Shown here piece by piece: positions 19,103-35,989 of a stretch of DNA of 35,989 nucleotides. The notes under the pieces were generated by a model. That model was given only the letters and a program-made list of their open reading frames with translations. It made no database searches and was not told the origin of the DNA. Made by a program: the position numbers and the translations under genes. Source of the DNA: a bacterium. Its GTDB lineage: Bacteria; Patescibacteriota; Minisyncoccia; Phycocordibacterales; PALSA-1337. Each line of letters begins with the position of its first letter. Within the stretch, counting starts at the first letter, position 1. The DNA is taken from NCBI GenBank assembly GCA_025355565.1, contig JANXZK010000027.1, forward strand, positions 1 to 35,989, in the 5' to 3' direction.

Positions 19103-19236
19103 ATTAGGGACTCGAAGCTTACAGCTTCGGTACAGTCTTCGCGTCGTACTCATACTCGTTACGCTCGGATTCCGTGCGACACGCTCAGACTTTTCTCGTC
19201 CCTCCCGCGAGGCACGCAGGTGCCTCGCTTCGTCAC

Positions 19237-19274
19237 CCACTCAAAAATCCGCTTCCGCGGATTTTCTCGTGTGC
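19237..19274 (+). repeat. 38-bp direct repeat, left copy
   Basis: CCACTCAAAAATCCGCTTCCGCGGATTTTCTCGTGTGC, identical to 21772-21809; contains a 9-bp stem hairpin. Confidence 0.95.
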
Positions 19275-19280
19275 TCTAAT

Positions 19281-19441
19281 TATACACTTTGCGCGAACCT
19301 TTTTCGAGCGGAAACTGAACGAATGAATCAGCCCCGCCACCGCCTCGCAGAGCCTCGGCGGAATTTTCTAGCAAGAAAATATCCGTGACCTGGGGAATGA
19401 ATGCGGGCGGGTTTCGGATTCGCCAAATTTTTTCTGCGCCA
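19281..19441 (+). repeat. Left terminal inverted repeat of the Fic cassette (with ~49-bp extra segment)
   Basis: TATACACTTTGCGCGAACC...CCCGCCACC-[49 bp]-TGGGGAATGAATGCGGGCGGG...TTTCTGCGCCA matches the reverse complement of 21654-21765. Confidence 0.92.
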
Positions 19442-19452
19442 CAAATAAGAAT

Positions 19453-21384
19453 TTATTCCCTCAAATTCTTAACACTCACGATATGCCAACCAGAATGTAG
19501 AGCTGACCCTTCGGGAATATTAACGTAGATTCCTTCCTCGTCCTTAATAGTTCCAACACTTGCGCGAACAGCCTGTTCTGTTTGTTTTTGGATTGTCGCC
19601 AAAAAATCGGGGCTGGCGATTTCAAAAATATATTTGCGAGGTGCTGGCTGTTCGCTATCAACTCTCACAACTTTCTTTTCGCTATAATCTACCATTTTGT
19701 CGCTATAAAAAATTCCCTCCATAATTTGCTGGACAATTTCTTCTATCTTTTTTGATTTGACTTCAAATAATTTCATTCTCAATGATGAGCCATTTTCGCT
19801 GACATAATAAACCGACTGCGAAAACAGATCGTCCAAAAATCCTGAAATATCATCTTTGTCTTCTAAATACTCCTGCTTTGTAAAAGAGATTTCGTAATCT
19901 TTTGAGGTATCAAGTCTGTATTTGAAAACTTGAGAGTTATCTAAATGGCTTATCATCTTCGCGGCTGTATGATATTGCGAAAAGTATTCCAATAATTCTT
20001 TTTGTTTTCCTGCCACATAAGTATTTACCTGCTCTCTCGACACGGTAATGTTTGCATTTACTCGTTGAGAAAGATCAAAAAGAGAATCTGTTAAAATTTC
20101 TAGTTTTTGTTCATCCGTATATTGCTGACCCTCAAAACTTTTTTCTGCTTCAATAATTTGAGCGAGTTCTTGCGTTAGTTGTTGCAGAGCGTTTATTTCT
20201 TCCGCAGAAAAAGTTTTGTATTCACCATCGCTTTGATTGAACCTTTCTTTAATCAGATTCTCTTTTTGTTCAATTCGCGCCAACTCTCTTTCTTCTGCTT
20301 CCTGTCTCTCTTTTGCCACTCGGTCTTCTTCAGCAATTTCTTCGGCCTTTTCTTTCATTCTCAACTCAAAATAATCCTTGAGATAGATTTTTTGTCCCTC
20401 GTGTTCAATTTGATATTTCTCATTTTCGGGATGAGAAATACTATCGATCAAGATCTCGACATATTTTTTCTTCAATTCCTTGTAGGTTTGGAGAATTTGA
20501 CTTAGTCCCTCTTGTGTCAAATTTTTTGAAAGTAATTCAATGGGAACAGCTGCGCGTTCTGGAAATTTGCGAAGATATTTCTCTTTATCACCTTGTTGTT
20601 GTAAATACTGAAAAACGCTCAAAAACAAATATCGGCCATCTTTATCTAAAAGTTCGCCAAATAATTTTTGGTCTTCTTCCAAAATTTCGGCATCAAATTG
20701 AAAATCGCGTTTACTGCCGAAGAGGTTTGTAATTTTATCAGTGTTGATTTCAATATCTGTTACTCCGATTTCTTTTTCTATCAATTTGTTAATTTCATGT
20801 TGGATAAGTCCAGGATCAATATCCAATGTATCCCTACCGTCTCTGCTTAGCACTCCTTGTAATTCGGCTTTTGTTTCGTCATTAAACTCTTTAGTGAGCA
20901 GTGTATAAATTAGCCGACTCGTCCTACCATTTGCATCTAAATATGGGTGAATAGCGTTTAAGGATGACGAAACAAGTAATGCAACATCTCTCAAATCTTT
21001 TCCGCCCTGACTCATCTCTTTTGCAGAAGCCAAAACTTTAGCAAGTAAATCTGGCTTATCTTCTTGTCTTGGTGGAACATAACCTATTCCCGTCATGACT
21101 GCTTCTAGCGCAACAGTCTCTCCATCCATACCCCATTCGTCTTTCTTCTTACCGCGCAAGATTCCATTTACTCCGTCTAACAACTCAACAAATTCTGTTT
21201 CCTGTAGATTTTCAAGAAAAGTGCGTTTTTCTTTCTCGCTTGAAAATATATCTTCTATTTTTCTTCCATGAAACGGTTCAATATTTTCTGCCGTGCGTAA
21301 AAAACGCAAAAGGACTTCCGATCTTTTCTCTCGCTCAATAGCTTCTTCGTTTCTTGGGTTTTCTAAATTTAGACGTTCGCGCAT
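19453..21384 (-). CDS. Fic-domain protein
   Basis: HPYLDANGRTSR Fic motif; long C-terminal region. Confidence 0.85.
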   Translation of the reverse strand: MRERLNLENPRNEEAIEREKRSEVLLRFLRTAENIEPFHGRKIEDIFSSEKEKRTFLENLQETEFVELLDGVNGILRGKKKDEWGMDGETVALEAVMTGIGYVPPRQEDKPDLLAKVLASAKEMSQGGKDLRDVALLVSSSLNAIHPYLDANGRTSRLIYTLLTKEFNDETKAELQGVLSRDGRDTLDIDPGLIQHEINKLIEKEIGVTDIEINTDKITNLFGSKRDFQFDAEILEEDQKLFGELLDKDGRYLFLSVFQYLQQQGDKEKYLRKFPERAAVPIELLSKNLTQEGLSQILQTYKELKKKYVEILIDSISHPENEKYQIEHEGQKIYLKDYFELRMKEKAEEIAEEDRVAKERQEAEERELARIEQKENLIKERFNQSDGEYKTFSAEEINALQQLTQELAQIIEAEKSFEGQQYTDEQKLEILTDSLFDLSQRVNANITVSREQVNTYVAGKQKELLEYFSQYHTAAKMISHLDNSQVFKYRLDTSKDYEISFTKQEYLEDKDDISGFLDDLFSQSVYYVSENGSSLRMKLFEVKSKKIEEIVQQIMEGIFYSDKMVDYSEKKVVRVDSEQPAPRKYIFEIASPDFLATIQKQTEQAVRASVGTIKDEEGIYVNIPEGSALHSGWHIVSVKNLRE

Positions 21385-21388
21385 ATAT

Positions 21389-21595
21389 TTATTTTAAAAG
21401 CTCATCAACCGAAACATTAAGTGCACGAGCAATTTTTTCTACAACTGCAATAGTTACATTTTTCTTGCCACTTTCAATCGCACTCATATAACTTCTATCC
21501 ATATCAATTGCTCGACAAATGTCGCCTTGCGACATCTTACGGCGAAGCCGTATGCGCTTAATGTTTTGACCTAATGTTTTGGAAATTTGAGCCAT
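21389..21595 (-). CDS. XRE-family HTH protein, first cistron before fic
   Basis: LGQNIKRIRLRRKMSQGDICRAIDMDRSYMSAIESGKKNVTI. Confidence 0.88.
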   Translation of the reverse strand: MAQISKTLGQNIKRIRLRRKMSQGDICRAIDMDRSYMSAIESGKKNVTIAVVEKIARALNVSVDELLK

Positions 21596-21653
21596 ATCGT
21601 GATATCCACAGTTTAGCAGTTATTGCGCTTGTATTCCATATATGAATTTGTAT

Positions 21654-21765
21654 TGGCGCAGAAAAAATTTGGCGAATCCGAAACCCGCCCGCATTCATTC
21701 CCCAGGTGGCGGGACTGATTCATTCATTCAATTTCCGCTCGAAAAAGGTTCGCGCAAAGTGTATA
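21654..21765 (-). repeat. Right terminal inverted repeat of the Fic cassette
   Basis: Reverse complement of the left copy. Confidence 0.92.
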
Positions 21766-21771
21766 AATACA

Positions 21772-21809
21772 CCACTCAAAAATCCGCTTCCGCGGATTTT
21801 CTCGTGTGC
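21772..21809 (+). repeat. 38-bp direct repeat, right copy, overlapping the last 3 nt of tRNA-Tyr
   Basis: Identical to 19237-19274. Confidence 0.95.
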
Positions 21810-21889
21810 GCCGAGAGGGACTCGAACCCCCGATGCCCATTGGGCCGTGGATTTACAGTCCACTGGAATAGCCGCTATCCGATCGGCGC
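21807..21889 (-). tRNA. tRNA-Tyr(GUA)
   Basis: GCGCCGA..GGACTGTAAATCC..long variable arm..GGGGGTTCGAGTCCCTCTCGGCGCA. Confidence 0.93.
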
Positions 21890-32049: not shown

Positions 32050-32134
32050 GCCGGGGTGGCGAAATTGGTAGACGCACGTGGCTTAGGACCACGCGAAGCA
32101 ATTCATGGAGGTTCGAGTCCTCTCCCCGGCACCA
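32050..32134 (+). tRNA. tRNA-Leu(UAG)
   Basis: GCCGGGGTGGCGAAATTGGTAGACGC..CTTAGGA..GGTTCGAGTCCTCTCCCCGGCACCA. Confidence 0.95.
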
Positions 32135-33681
32135 GTAGTAACTTGTTCGGAATTAAGAATATGGAGCGATTTTGCGGAAGCCAAAATCGTGCTTTGATTT
32201 TCGCCAAAACCCTTTCCGCCTACGGCGGAAGCCGTGAAATCCCATAATTCCCCCCAGCGTATGGAAACCGTTTTGTCCTTGATTTCAGGGTTAGAGCCGA
32301 TTTTCTGAAAAAACTTCTTCCATTCTAAATGATTGGAAGTTTTTTCTAAATCGACCGCTTGTTTCAAGGACAAAACGAAACTCCGCAAGGGTTCGACCCA
32401 ATTCTTTCTCTGTTGTCCAAAATTTGTTTTTGATTCGAGCAAACCCACCTTTTCACGCATGAGCAGGTCTTTGCGTGCGAGATACATTTCTCGTTCAATA
32501 TCGCCGTCAAGAAAAACTGAAACGAGTTTATTCAGTTTTTCTTCGTTTGCTCGAATCTTTTCCTTCAAATTTTGGGCAACACTTCCTTTTTCAGAAATTG
32601 ATTCGTTTTCCCATAGAGTTATCTGTTTGTCCATTTCTTCAATTTCAGAAAAAGGAAGCGACACTGATTGAAGCAGTGTTTGCAATTGTGTGGCGAGTAT
32701 CTTTTCTTGCGTATACGGCTGTGCGCACTTTCCATTTTTCTTGGTGCAACGATAGTAGGTGTAGCGCGTACCAAAGCGATTGGTCGCATATTGCGCCGTA
32801 ATCGCACAGCCGCACTCGCCACATTTTGCAAACCCCGTAAACACGAACGGAAGCGCAACTTTGGACTTTCTCGGTTTCTTGCGCGAAGTGAGCACTTTTT
32901 GAACTGCTTCAAACAGTGTCGGAGAAAGAATTGGCTCAAAGTTTCCGTTGTGCCATTCACCACGATGCTTGATAAAGCCGAGATATGCTCTGTTGGTCAA
33001 CATTTTCACAACGGAAACTTTGGCAAGTGGCGTTCCTTTTTTCTGCACAACGCCGTAATCTGCCAAAAAATCCGCTAATGATTTGAGCGTATGCGTTCCC
33101 GTGGTGTATTCTTCAAACGCTCGCTTGATAATACGAGACTTCACTTTGTCTGGTTCAATATTTTTCGTTTTCAAATTGTTCACATAACCGAACGGAGCGA
33201 GCGTTAGCCACTCACCACGGCGGATTTTTTGGCGGATTCCACGCTTTACATTTTCAACAAGGTTGTCAGAAAAATATTTAGACTGTCCGAACGCCACTTG
33301 CAACATGAATTTGCCTTGCGGAGTTGGCTCAAACCAAAACTGCGGAAAGCGTAAAGAAGCAATTCTGTTGATGTCTACTAGATATATTATTTTTCCACCA
33401 TCAACAGAATTACGGGCGAGACGGTCGGGGTGCCATGCCAAAATTCCTAAAGGTTCAGTAGAGTTTTCAATATACTCAATCATTTTGGCAAAACCGTCTC
33501 GCCCGGGCTTCTTTGCGCTTTTCGCTTCCGTAAATACTTTTACGATTTCAATGCGTTCTCTGCGAGCAAATTCCTGTAACTCAAACAGTTGAGCTTCAAT
33601 ACTCATCACTTGCTTGTCATCTTCCTCGGTGCTCTTGCGAGCATAGAGAACGCATTTAGTTTTGGTTTGAGTTGTTTCCAT
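32083..33681 (-). CDS. Large serine recombinase (resolvase + recombinase + zinc ribbon)
   Basis: METTQTKTKCVLYARKSTEEDDKQVMSIEAQ, HPDRLARN, CGECGCAITAQY..RTYYRC; start placed at 33681, C-terminus reads antisense into tRNA-Leu. Confidence 0.92.
   Translation of the reverse strand: METTQTKTKCVLYARKSTEEDDKQVMSIEAQLFELQEFARRERIEIVKVFTEAKSAKKPGRDGFAKMIEYIENSTEPLGILAWHPDRLARNSVDGGKIIYLVDINRIASLRFPQFWFEPTPQGKFMLQVAFGQSKYFSDNLVENVKRGIRQKIRRGEWLTLAPFGYVNNLKTKNIEPDKVKSRIIKRAFEEYTTGTHTLKSLADFLADYGVVQKKGTPLAKVSVVKMLTNRAYLGFIKHRGEWHNGNFEPILSPTLFEAVQKVLTSRKKPRKSKVALPFVFTGFAKCGECGCAITAQYATNRFGTRYTYYRCTKKNGKCAQPYTQEKILATQLQTLLQSVSLPFSEIEEMDKQITLWENESISEKGSVAQNLKEKIRANEEKLNKLVSVFLDGDIEREMYLARKDLLMREKVGLLESKTNFGQQRKNWVEPLRSFVLSLKQAVDLEKTSNHLEWKKFFQKIGSNPEIKDKTVSIRWGELWDFTASAVGGKGFGENQSTILASAKSLHILNSEQVTTGAGERTRTSMNCFAWS
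32129..32268 (+). repeat. 140-bp inverted repeat, left arm of recombinase element
   Basis: GCACCAGTAGTAACTTGTTCGGAATTA...CCCCCCAGCGTATGGAAAC, matches the reverse complement of 33674-33813. Confidence 0.93.
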
Positions 33682-33813
33682 ACGCTGGGGGGAATTATGG
33701 GATTTCACGGCTTCCGCCGTAGGCGGAAAGGGTTTTGAAAAAATTGACAGCGCGATTTTGACTTCTGCAAAATCGCTCCATATTCCTAATTCCGAACAAG
33801 TTACTACTGGTGC
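33674..33813 (-). repeat. 140-bp inverted repeat, right arm, containing the recombinase start codon
   Basis: Reverse complement matches 32129-32268 with scattered mismatches. Confidence 0.93.
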
Positions 33814-33820
33814 TGTAATC

Positions 33821-33865
33821 ATACACTTTGCGCGAACCTTTTTCGAGCGGAAACTGAACGAATGA
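33821..33865 (+). repeat. 45-bp end motif shared with the Fic cassette
   Basis: ATACACTTTGCGCGAACCTTTTTCGAGCGGAAACTGAACGAATGA identical to 19282-19326; inverted copy with two mismatches at 21720-21764. Confidence 0.95.
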
Positions 33866-33997
33866 GCGCGCCTCGTCCGCTCCCTTCGGTCGCGGTACAA
33901 AACCAAAAATTTTCCTTCCTTTCTTTAGATTTTCGGCGGGTGTGGGGGGAGCCGACAAAAAATAGAAAGGAAATTTTTGGTTTTGATTCGCCGCTTC
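33866..33997 (+). repeat. ~132-bp inverted repeat, left arm of the XRE-Hint cassette
   Basis: GCGCGCCTCGTCCGCTCC..GGTCGCGGTACAAAACCAAAAATTTTCC...GATTCGCCGCTTC matches the reverse complement of 35772-35906. Confidence 0.93.
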
Positions 33998-34049: not shown

Positions 34050-34055
34050 ATGATT

Positions 34056-34259
34056 ATGTTGATAAGTAAAAGGTTAGGTCAGAATATTAAGAAAATACGG
34101 ACAAGTAAAGGAATGTCGCAAGGCGATATTTGCCGAGCGCTTAATATGGACAGGGGCTATATGAGTGCTATTGAAAATGGGAAGAAAAATATTACCATTC
34201 AGCAATTAGAAAGATTGGCAAAAGCGCTTGGAGTGCCGGTGGATAAATTATTAAAATGA
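34056..34259 (+). CDS. XRE-family HTH protein, first cistron before the PKD-Hint gene
   Basis: MLISKRLGQNIKKIRTSKGMSQGDICRALNMDRGYMSAIENGKKNITI; about two thirds identical by eye to 21389-21595. Confidence 0.88.
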   Translation: MLISKRLGQNIKKIRTSKGMSQGDICRALNMDRGYMSAIENGKKNITIQQLERLAKALGVPVDKLLK

Positions 34260-35464
34260 GAGTATTATATAAGTATATGAAAAACTTACAAAAAGGTTTT
34301 GTCATCCCAATTCTTTTGGTCATTGTCGCTTTATTGGTGGTAGGTGGTGGCGTGTACATTTATGAGAATAAAAAAGCAGAAACGCCTGTCGTTATTGATA
34401 ATACTCAAACTCCACCGCCAGTTGTCACGCCAAGCCCCAATCCAACACCCACACCTACACCTACACCAAGTCCTACTCCCAAACCTTCCCCGACACCAAC
34501 TCCGATACCAATTCCGCAATCTTTCAGATTCGGAGCTTCACCAATGTCCGGGGCACCACCACTGAACGTATCTATCGGCGCATTTTCATCCGATCCATTG
34601 CCTTTTGATGACTTCACAATTGATTATGGCGATGGTTCCCATAATTCTTTGCAACAGCAATGTTTTGAGCCATCTGGCGCGGATCGAATTTGTCAGATAA
34701 GAACAGAGCACAACTACACGTCCTCTGGCACATTCGCGGCTACGTTACGCGGAATCAAGAAAGGCAACTCGCAAATTCTTGGTACGCTGAAAATTGCTGT
34801 TGGTAATCCATTAACGGTAATTAAAACAATCGGAGAAAAGGAAAGTTCCTTTTTGATACAAAAAATTAACCGCGATAGTGTTGATGGCCTTTGGTCCCAA
34901 GCGTACCCAGTTGCAACAGAAGAAGGTACCCCTAAGACTTTACGTATCGGGGATGATATAGGATATGGATGCGAAGGTGTATCAGATAAACTTACAAGCA
35001 TTGATTTTTCTGGACAGCGAGTAACATTTACTAAATCTTGGCAGAAAGCACCTTACGGCGGATGTCCAATTTGTCTTTCAAGTAAGACACTCATTGACAC
35101 GCCTTATGGATTGGTACTTGTAAAAGATCTAAAAGCTGGTATGCCAATTTGGACATCCGATAAATCCGGTCACCGTGTCTCTGGAATTGTTGAGAAAACT
35201 TCGAGAGTTCCTGTACCGCCCACACATCAGATGGTCCATTTAATTCTTGGTGATGGACGAGAATTATTTGTCTCTCCTCCACATCCAACTATTGATGGAC
35301 GCACAGTCGGAGATCTTGTTGTTAACGAACTTTATGATGGTGCGCGCATAGTTTCGTCCGAGCGAGTGTCTTATGATGATGTTGCGACCTACGACATTTT
35401 GCCATCCGGTGAAACCGGATTCTATTGGGCAAACGGTATTCTTATGGGTAGTACGCTCCGCTAA
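34256..35464 (+). CDS. Membrane-anchored protein: TM, Pro/Thr-rich stalk, PKD-like domain, C-terminal Hint domain
   Basis: KGFVIPILLVIVALLVVGGG; (PT)n linker; FTIDYGDGS..HNYTSSGTFAATL; CLSSKTLIDTPYGLVLVKDLKAGMPIWT...TYDILPSGETGFYWANGILMGSTL. Confidence 0.85.
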   Translation: MRVLYKYMKNLQKGFVIPILLVIVALLVVGGGVYIYENKKAETPVVIDNTQTPPPVVTPSPNPTPTPTPTPSPTPKPSPTPTPIPIPQSFRFGASPMSGAPPLNVSIGAFSSDPLPFDDFTIDYGDGSHNSLQQQCFEPSGADRICQIRTEHNYTSSGTFAATLRGIKKGNSQILGTLKIAVGNPLTVIKTIGEKESSFLIQKINRDSVDGLWSQAYPVATEEGTPKTLRIGDDIGYGCEGVSDKLTSIDFSGQRVTFTKSWQKAPYGGCPICLSSKTLIDTPYGLVLVKDLKAGMPIWTSDKSGHRVSGIVEKTSRVPVPPTHQMVHLILGDGRELFVSPPHPTIDGRTVGDLVVNELYDGARIVSSERVSYDDVATYDILPSGETGFYWANGILMGSTLR

Positions 35465-35771: not shown

Positions 35772-35906
35772 GAAGCGGCGAATCAAAACCAAAAATTTCC
35801 TTTCCATTTTTTGTCGGCTCCCCCCACACCCCCCGCCGAAAATCTAAAGAAAGGAAGGAAAATTTTTGGTTTTGTACCGCGACCGAATGGAGCGGACGAG
35901 GCGCGC
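35772..35906 (-). repeat. ~135-bp inverted repeat, right arm of the XRE-Hint cassette
   Basis: Reverse complement matches 33866-33997. Confidence 0.93.
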
Positions 35907-35989
35907 ATCATTCCGCATCAGGATTGTTTTGAAAAAAGGTTCGGATTTTGTTCAGAATACACAGCACTGTGAGTAAATTAGCTTCTTCG

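Follow-up and report, generated by a model that had tools for sequence, protein, structure and literature searches.

How a two-gene cassette that encodes no mobility enzyme of its own came to lie between inverted and direct repeats at the 3′ end of a tRNA gene is the question raised by this locus. The window, by which we mean the whole 35,989-nt stretch of DNA analysed, is contig 17 of an 832-kb genome assembled in 27 contigs (genome label G000). We approached the question through the anatomy of the cassette, the state of its insertion site in related genomes, the distribution of its ends and the enzymes encoded beside them.

Anatomy of the XRE-fic cassette

Read from its distal side, the element (19237–21809) consists of a 38-bp direct repeat, a terminal inverted repeat (TIR), the fic and XRE genes (both on the minus strand), a second TIR and a second 38-bp copy, which runs into a minus-strand tRNA-Tyr gene (Table 1). 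This order, the identity of the two direct repeats and the hairpin within them had been put forward in the initial annotation, and all were confirmed on the sequence. The direct repeats share 100% identity, and no further exact repeat in the window reaches 38 bp except a TIR copy at 33810. The hairpin, AAAATCCGC-TTCC-GCGGATTTT, has 9-bp arms, and the 38-mer folds with z = -4.9 relative to shuffled sequences. The proximal copy shares the last 4 nt of the tRNA-Tyr gene called by ARAGORN, and so the overlap of 3 nt originally annotated needs correction. Complementarity between the two TIRs is 88% in the outer 78 bp and rises to 97% in the inner 59 bp. The left arm is longer by 53 bp (19339–19391), an insert which contains a short repeat common across the genus. 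This short hairpin repeat (GAATTTTCYAGCARGAAAATATCCGTG) is confined to the left TIR of the cassette and recurs at G000:C10:184-214, at G000:C11:45830-45861 and in many genomes of the genus; it is an unrelated family of repeats, each possibly acting as a terminator or a small mobile repeat.

Open reading frames and a Pfam search reveal only fic and XRE within the cassette, with no transposase or integrase, and no large serine recombinase (LSR) gene lies inside it. Modules carrying an LSR do adjoin sister cassettes, including one in the window at 32083–33681. The motif of the Fic protein departs slightly from the Fic consensus, and enzyme activity is plausible. No named NCBIfam family matches the protein and PADLOC returns a weak SoFic match for it, while the closest PADLOC model for the cassette XRE protein is a restriction-modification control protein (E 1.8e-17). 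Judged by its family, Fic would be a toxin or modifier under the control of XRE. Relatives of Fic were also considered as cassette cargo elsewhere, and neither the best homologue (43%, in G367) nor two weaker ones adjoin a TIR.

Table 1. Coordinates of the features of the two arrays in the window.
Feature	Position	Strand	Basis or remark
Outer flank, genus repeat	19131..19236	-	Resembles inverted tRNA 3′ half: T-arm-like CTTTTCTCGTCCCTC and small hairpin
Distal 38-bp hairpin direct repeat	19237..19274		Exact repeat and folding
Left (distal) TIR	19275..19441 (end approximate)		Outer ~90 bp common to other genomes; 19339-19391 extra relative to right arm
fic, 643 aa, HPYLDANGR at residue 146	19453..21384	-	PF02661 E 7.9e-8
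XRE/HTH_3 regulator, 68 aa, first cassette gene	21389..21595	-	HTH_3 E 8e-15
Right (tRNA-proximal) TIR	21654..21771 (start approximate)		Complementarity to left TIR
Proximal 38-bp hairpin direct repeat	21772..21809		Includes last 4 nt of tRNA-Tyr
tRNA-Tyr (gta), attachment site	21806..21889	-	tRNA call; orthologous site in relatives
tRNA-Leu (tag), attachment site of second array	32050..32134	+	tRNA call
Left arm of palindromic LSR module	32129..32268		Covers last 6 nt (GCACCA) of tRNA-Leu
LSR, Resolvase + Recombinase + Zn ribbon	32083..33681	-	Best NCBIfam match CcrB of SCCmec
Right arm of palindromic LSR module	33674..33813		Ends with reverse complement of tRNA end (GGTGC), adjoins cassette TIR
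TIR of XRE-Hint cassette	33810..33865		96% identical over 56 bp to left Fic-cassette TIR
XRE of XRE-Hint cassette	34050..34259	+	DNA 83% complementary to Fic-cassette XRE over 87 nt
Hint-domain protein, second-cassette cargo	34256..35464	+	PF13403 E 1.4e-5, just below cut-off
Distal end of XRE-Hint cassette, variant TIR GTGCTGTGTATTCTGAACAAAATCCGAACC	35907..35973		Sequence match, reverse strand

The tRNA-Tyr site in relatives and the spread of the cassette ends

The orthologous tRNA-Tyr/clp neighbourhood is common to the genus and, in the genomes examined, the relatives' site is either empty or occupied by other inserts; the XRE-fic cassette is absent from the tRNA-Tyr sites of all 19 relatives read. 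A single copy of the hairpin stands beside tRNA-Tyr in G031, tRNA-Ile in G022 and tRNA-His in G018 and G027, and in all of these the same outer repeat continues beyond it, running from ...CAC and CCACTCAAAAATCCGC through the hairpin to the tRNA. The genus repeat on the outer flank of the Fic cassette likewise lies outside the single hairpin at these tRNA-Tyr, Ile and His sites, as well as beside the orthologous tRNA-Tyr in G011 and G009, and marks the former downstream side of the tRNA-Tyr site. Compared with single-hairpin sites, the window has gained XRE-fic with its TIRs and one additional hairpin, and no relative examined that lacks the genes has both 38-bp copies. The existence of empty sites within the genus thus bears out the original proposal that a non-autonomous element inserted at the 3′ end of tRNA-Tyr.

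What follows the tRNA-Tyr end differs among the relatives: unrelated sequence with nothing recognisable in G029, the genus repeat in G011 and G009, hairpin plus genus repeat in G021, and in G034 the start of an LSR module whose frame begins METTQTKTKCVLYARKSTEEDDKQ and resembles the LSR of the window. On the basis of these differences, we can conclude that insertions have repeatedly targeted the 3′ end of tRNA-Tyr. The genus repeat of G011 (L222) is an insert of ~170 bp with a direct copy of the 3′ half of tRNA-Tyr at its end, and is itself a mini-element with tRNA-derived repeats. The 38-bp repeat of the window could be a target duplication, or the element may carry its own hairpin module, which would account for the second copy.

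The outer TIR sequence GGTGCTGTAATTATACACTTTGCGCGAACYTTTTTCGAGCGGAA is found in 78 of the 397 genomes of the order, spanning 54 genera, and an exact TIR 34-mer is present in named metagenome-assembled genomes (MAGs) from about a dozen Parcubacteria lineages, namely Azam-, Yanofsky-, Vogel-, Lipton-, Kaiser-, Giovannoni-, Taylor-, Magasanik-, Uhr-, Nealson- and Yonathbacteria. Most of the genomes are MAGs, in which many TIR ends fall at contig ends because they are repeats. The TIRs are 55–390 bp long and enclose cassettes of 1–7 kb with one to a few genes; of 33 TIR ends, 11 have an XRE gene within 1.6 kb on the inward side and none has one on the outward side. A search for the same ends around cargo other than fic, suggested at the outset, was successful. 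The TIRs of a cassette in G049, a genome from a different family, match those of the Fic cassette at 98% identity; they enclose XRE, an Mrr nuclease, a DnaJ-like protein and two TPR proteins, and the whole lies immediately after a tRNA-Tyr terminator. Other cassettes or TIR-adjacent segments contain a methyltransferase, an Exo_endo_phos protein, an RM methylase, tyrS, RdgB/HAM1, a P-type ATPase and a phosphotransferase. The XRE-fic pair is a member of a cassette family that is widespread in ultra-small Patescibacteria and apparently undescribed; our literature search, over texts that omit most subscription papers and preprints, returned no description of such elements in these organisms.

Read outward, the TIRs display GGTTCG, then 18–19 nt, then terminal nucleotides equal to those of the neighbouring tRNA (GCAC, GCACCA, CCGC, GGAC or CAGCCA), such that their ends resemble a tRNA 3′ half. 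The outer parts of the TIRs fold no better than shuffled sequences, the inner hairpin of the G049 TIR being the one part that does (z -5.2), and single-strand folded ends were rejected as a general feature on this account. TATAAT occurs shortly before the outward TIR end at, for example, L038:9010-9030, L097:7433 and L101:6079, and at several loci the ATG of the next gene (alr, miaA) follows a few to some tens of nucleotides past that end, as though an outward promoter came with the cassette. Two facing TIRs without cargo form a 95-bp palindrome at L093:1-140 (G083:C45), which is an empty cassette.

These boundaries bear on whether the element is mobile at all. The tRNAs of the genus have many terminator hairpins and genus repeats beside them, which could recombine, and homologous recombination or gene conversion among these repeated sequences might have brought XRE-fic in with no mobility of its own. 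We consider this quite unlikely, however, as it leaves the precise TIR boundaries unexplained and is at odds with TIRs 98% identical in other families and with the same ends around unrelated cargo; moreover, TIR ends directly at the starts of alr and miaA point to precise insertion at non-homologous sites.

The ends might alternatively be those of a transposon-like element, DDE or of another kind, with long TIRs, a hairpin-sized target-site duplication and a transposase encoded elsewhere. The length of the TIRs, the TG..CA starts of most copies and three DDE_Tnp_1 genes in G000 all fit such an element, as do direct repeats that vary between loci, each corresponding to the terminator found there (38 bp in G000 and ~70 bp in G100). 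The usual target duplication of DDE elements is 2–14 bp, however, and duplications of 38–70 bp lie far beyond this range. Furthermore, the TIR ends equal the neighbouring tRNA 3′ nucleotides and adjoin LSR modules, and DDE_Tnp_1, the single DDE family searched, is missing from 10 of 12 TIR-bearing genomes, which led us to reject this transposase acting in trans. A transposon origin is therefore unlikely overall. An insertion sequence would carry its own transposase and be flanked by a short target duplication of constant length, and the Fic cassette has neither.

LSR modules and their junctions with the TIRs

The second array of the window, 12 kb from the Fic cassette, contains an LSR module whose 140-bp inverted repeat extends from tRNA-Leu to the TIR of an XRE-Hint cassette. 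The CcrB match of the LSR (E 1.6e-26) is far below the family cut-off. The true C-terminus of the protein is uncertain because its frame passes through the left repeat arm into antisense tRNA-Leu (32083–32134), and overlap between the LSR 3′ end and a tRNA recurs in many loci. The XRE-Hint cassette has an inner 97-bp inverted-repeat pair (33866–33962 and 35810–35906) with internal hairpins (CAAAACCAAAAATTT..), unlike that of the Fic cassette, and TIR interiors look exchangeable. Its cargo protein combines an N-terminal hydrophobic stretch and a proline/threonine-rich linker with a weak Hint domain.

The same layout, in which a tRNA is followed by an LSR between inverted repeats and then by a TIR, is found at tRNA-Leu in the window and at tRNA-Tyr, Gln, Ser, Glu, Arg and Ile in other genera. 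Starting from the tRNA side, we found 15 palindromes of LSR size, 14 of which share 4–6 nt with the tRNA. CGAA occurs at offset 18 or 19 past the right arm in 13 of the 14 modules with sequence there, compared with 2 of 154 background positions, a contrast which carries no clean p-value given that the loci are related to each other and the counts are not independent.

The palindromic (P) modules occur both with and without an LSR gene. At tRNA-Ser the same P arm and TIR are found with the LSR (L145, L119) and without it (L041, with a ~100-nt hairpin), and a bare hairpin takes the place of the LSR module in LSR-free loci. P modules of either sort alternate with TIR-bounded cargo modules in L171, L175, L176, L089 and the window; in G099, G325, G100 (C5) and the window the order is tRNA, LSR module, cassette. 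A further array in G100 runs from tRNA-Val through a hairpin, a cassette (TIR-XRE-..-TIR) and an identical ~70-bp hairpin to the TIR of another unit. Both kinds of module end in inversely oriented junctions of one form, a tRNA-like end meeting a P arm. Among cassettes with both ends, a hairpin on both sides is found only in G000 and G100, and the complete G049 cassette has no second hairpin. The P-arm pattern of the LSR modules (about RAACTTNGNCGG) is not seen in the 38-bp hairpin of the window, which may simply be a terminator. At L104:1853-3850 (G185), a ~2-kb palindrome at tRNA-Ser adjoins an XRE cassette and encodes a 423-aa protein without a Pfam match, with no LSR seen; P modules may also carry cargo.

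LSR genes were present in all 22 TIR-bearing genomes first searched. Across the order (280 of 397 genomes with an LSR) the association with TIRs is modest, LSRs being present in 64 of 78 TIR-bearing genomes versus 216 of 319 others (Fisher p 0.013); the 14 TIR-bearing genomes without an LSR match are MAGs, some of them incomplete.

Two other classes of integrase were weighed against this background. The cassette could be a cis-mobilisable element moved by a tyrosine recombinase or Xer, with the 38-bp repeats as attL and attR. Tyrosine-integrase islands typically have repeats of this sort where they meet a tRNA 3′ end, an integrase-less element between such repeats recalls the CIMEs of tyrosine integrases, and one phage-integrase-fold recombinase is encoded in 11 of 12 genomes. 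Islands and CIMEs nonetheless have no TIRs, and the PF00589 gene, never more than one per genome and never inside the element, is probably the housekeeping Xer; none was found in G008 despite its TIRs. Since this explanation also leaves the TIRs, their abutment with LSR modules and the LSR-bearing and LSR-less pairs unaccounted for, we regard it as very unlikely. A casposon-like element, which would have TIRs, a Cas1-type integrase acting at the tRNA 3′ end and a target duplication that covers 4–7 tRNA nucleotides, has a precedent in that casposons too combine TIRs with overlap of the last 4–7 nt of a tRNA (PMC4046053). The cassettes are much smaller, however, no PolB was seen among those read, and PF01867 (Cas1) is absent from 10 of 12 genomes (G000, G049, G113, G107, G234 and five others), making this extremely improbable and largely refuted.

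The LSR is the best candidate enzyme because it is the sole class found at the junctions, with Cas1 and DDE_Tnp_1 missing from most carriers and Xer-type genes single or absent. The length of the TIRs, which exceeds that needed by known LSR sites, counts against it, as do the departure of the 38-bp hairpin from the P-arm pattern, the single hairpin of the G049 cassette and the high background of LSRs in the order. The initial annotation had held that the locus fits neither a standard IS nor an integrase island. The first part stands, in that the ends are not IS-like. The second needs to be revised, because TIR ends that resemble tRNA 3′ halves and adjoin LSR modules fit an integrase-type, LSR-moved modular element with TIRs.

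A candidate mechanism and its relation to known systems

We favour, with a probability of about 0.6, the interpretation that XRE-fic is a non-autonomous cassette and belongs to a modular integrative system whose anchor points are tRNA 3′ ends and whose most likely movers are LSRs acting in trans. In such a system, P modules would be palindromes starting inside the tRNA 3′ end, either with an LSR gene or reduced to a bare hairpin, and cargo modules would consist of XRE plus cargo between TIRs that read outward as a tRNA 3′ half. Given tRNA-like outward TIR ends and P arms that start in the tRNA end, every junction between a tRNA or tRNA-like end and a P arm would be one attachment site, with neighbouring sites inverted relative to each other. 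We infer that the LSR would recombine two junctions in direct orientation, inserting or excising a hairpin-plus-cargo pair as a circle. Insertion, as the reverse of excision, would yield two hairpins in the order tRNA, hairpin, cassette, hairpin, flank, which is the order found in the window; the 38-bp repeat would then be a duplicated hairpin module that also serves as the tRNA terminator.

A more far-reaching formulation, which we hold tentatively and at a little under even odds, is that this is a serine-recombinase counterpart of the integron and dif-module systems, in which palindromic LSR or hairpin modules and tRNA-mimicking cargo modules would alternate in arrays at tRNA 3′ ends, with terminal nucleotides matching the tRNA and with cassettes circulating across many lineages of Patescibacteria. 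Integron gene cassettes are small gene units separated by hairpin sites that may form arrays, whereas the Patescibacteria cassettes have double inverted ends and a tRNA anchor and no IntI-type integrase, their carriers having at most one PF00589 gene per genome.

By analogy, the cassettes would work most like dif modules in layout and most like SCC/ECC elements in enzyme class, although on the features compared they belong to neither system. SCC elements exist as tandem composites and in recombinase-less forms. SCC/ECC elements are cargo islands moved by LSRs (CcrAB) at the 3′ end of a conserved gene, with ~50-bp direct repeats and inverted repeats in their att sites (PMC6222049). Flanking direct repeats with inverted repeats occur here too, in the 38-bp hairpin repeats, but the target is the 3′ end of a tRNA rather than of rlmH, the cargo has long TIRs, the LSR resides in a palindromic module of its own and the units are only 1–7 kb. 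Acinetobacter dif modules, the substrates of XerCD, are recombinase-free and often encode regulators or toxin-antitoxin systems; their asymmetric sites are inversely oriented, two kinds of module alternate and an adjacent pair is excisable (PMC13141974). Recombinase-free, regulator-type modules, inversely oriented boundaries and two alternating kinds are thus common to both. The Patescibacteria cassettes instead have tRNA-3′-end-like half sites and palindromic P arms, with boundaries formed by TIR/hairpin junctions, and differ further in their chromosomal tRNA anchor, their long TIRs and an LSR module as one of the two kinds.

The genomes of Patescibacteria (CPR) are very small, and little is understood of how these organisms acquire genes. 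Much of the small-scale gene gain in Parcubacteria would be explained by a system of cassettes that has recognisable ends, a defined tRNA target and a candidate recombinase, and these ends would provide a handle for listing its cargo genome-wide. The system would also pose the testable question of whether serine recombinases use half sites resembling tRNA 3′ ends which, if true, may offer possible tools for tRNA-targeted integration.
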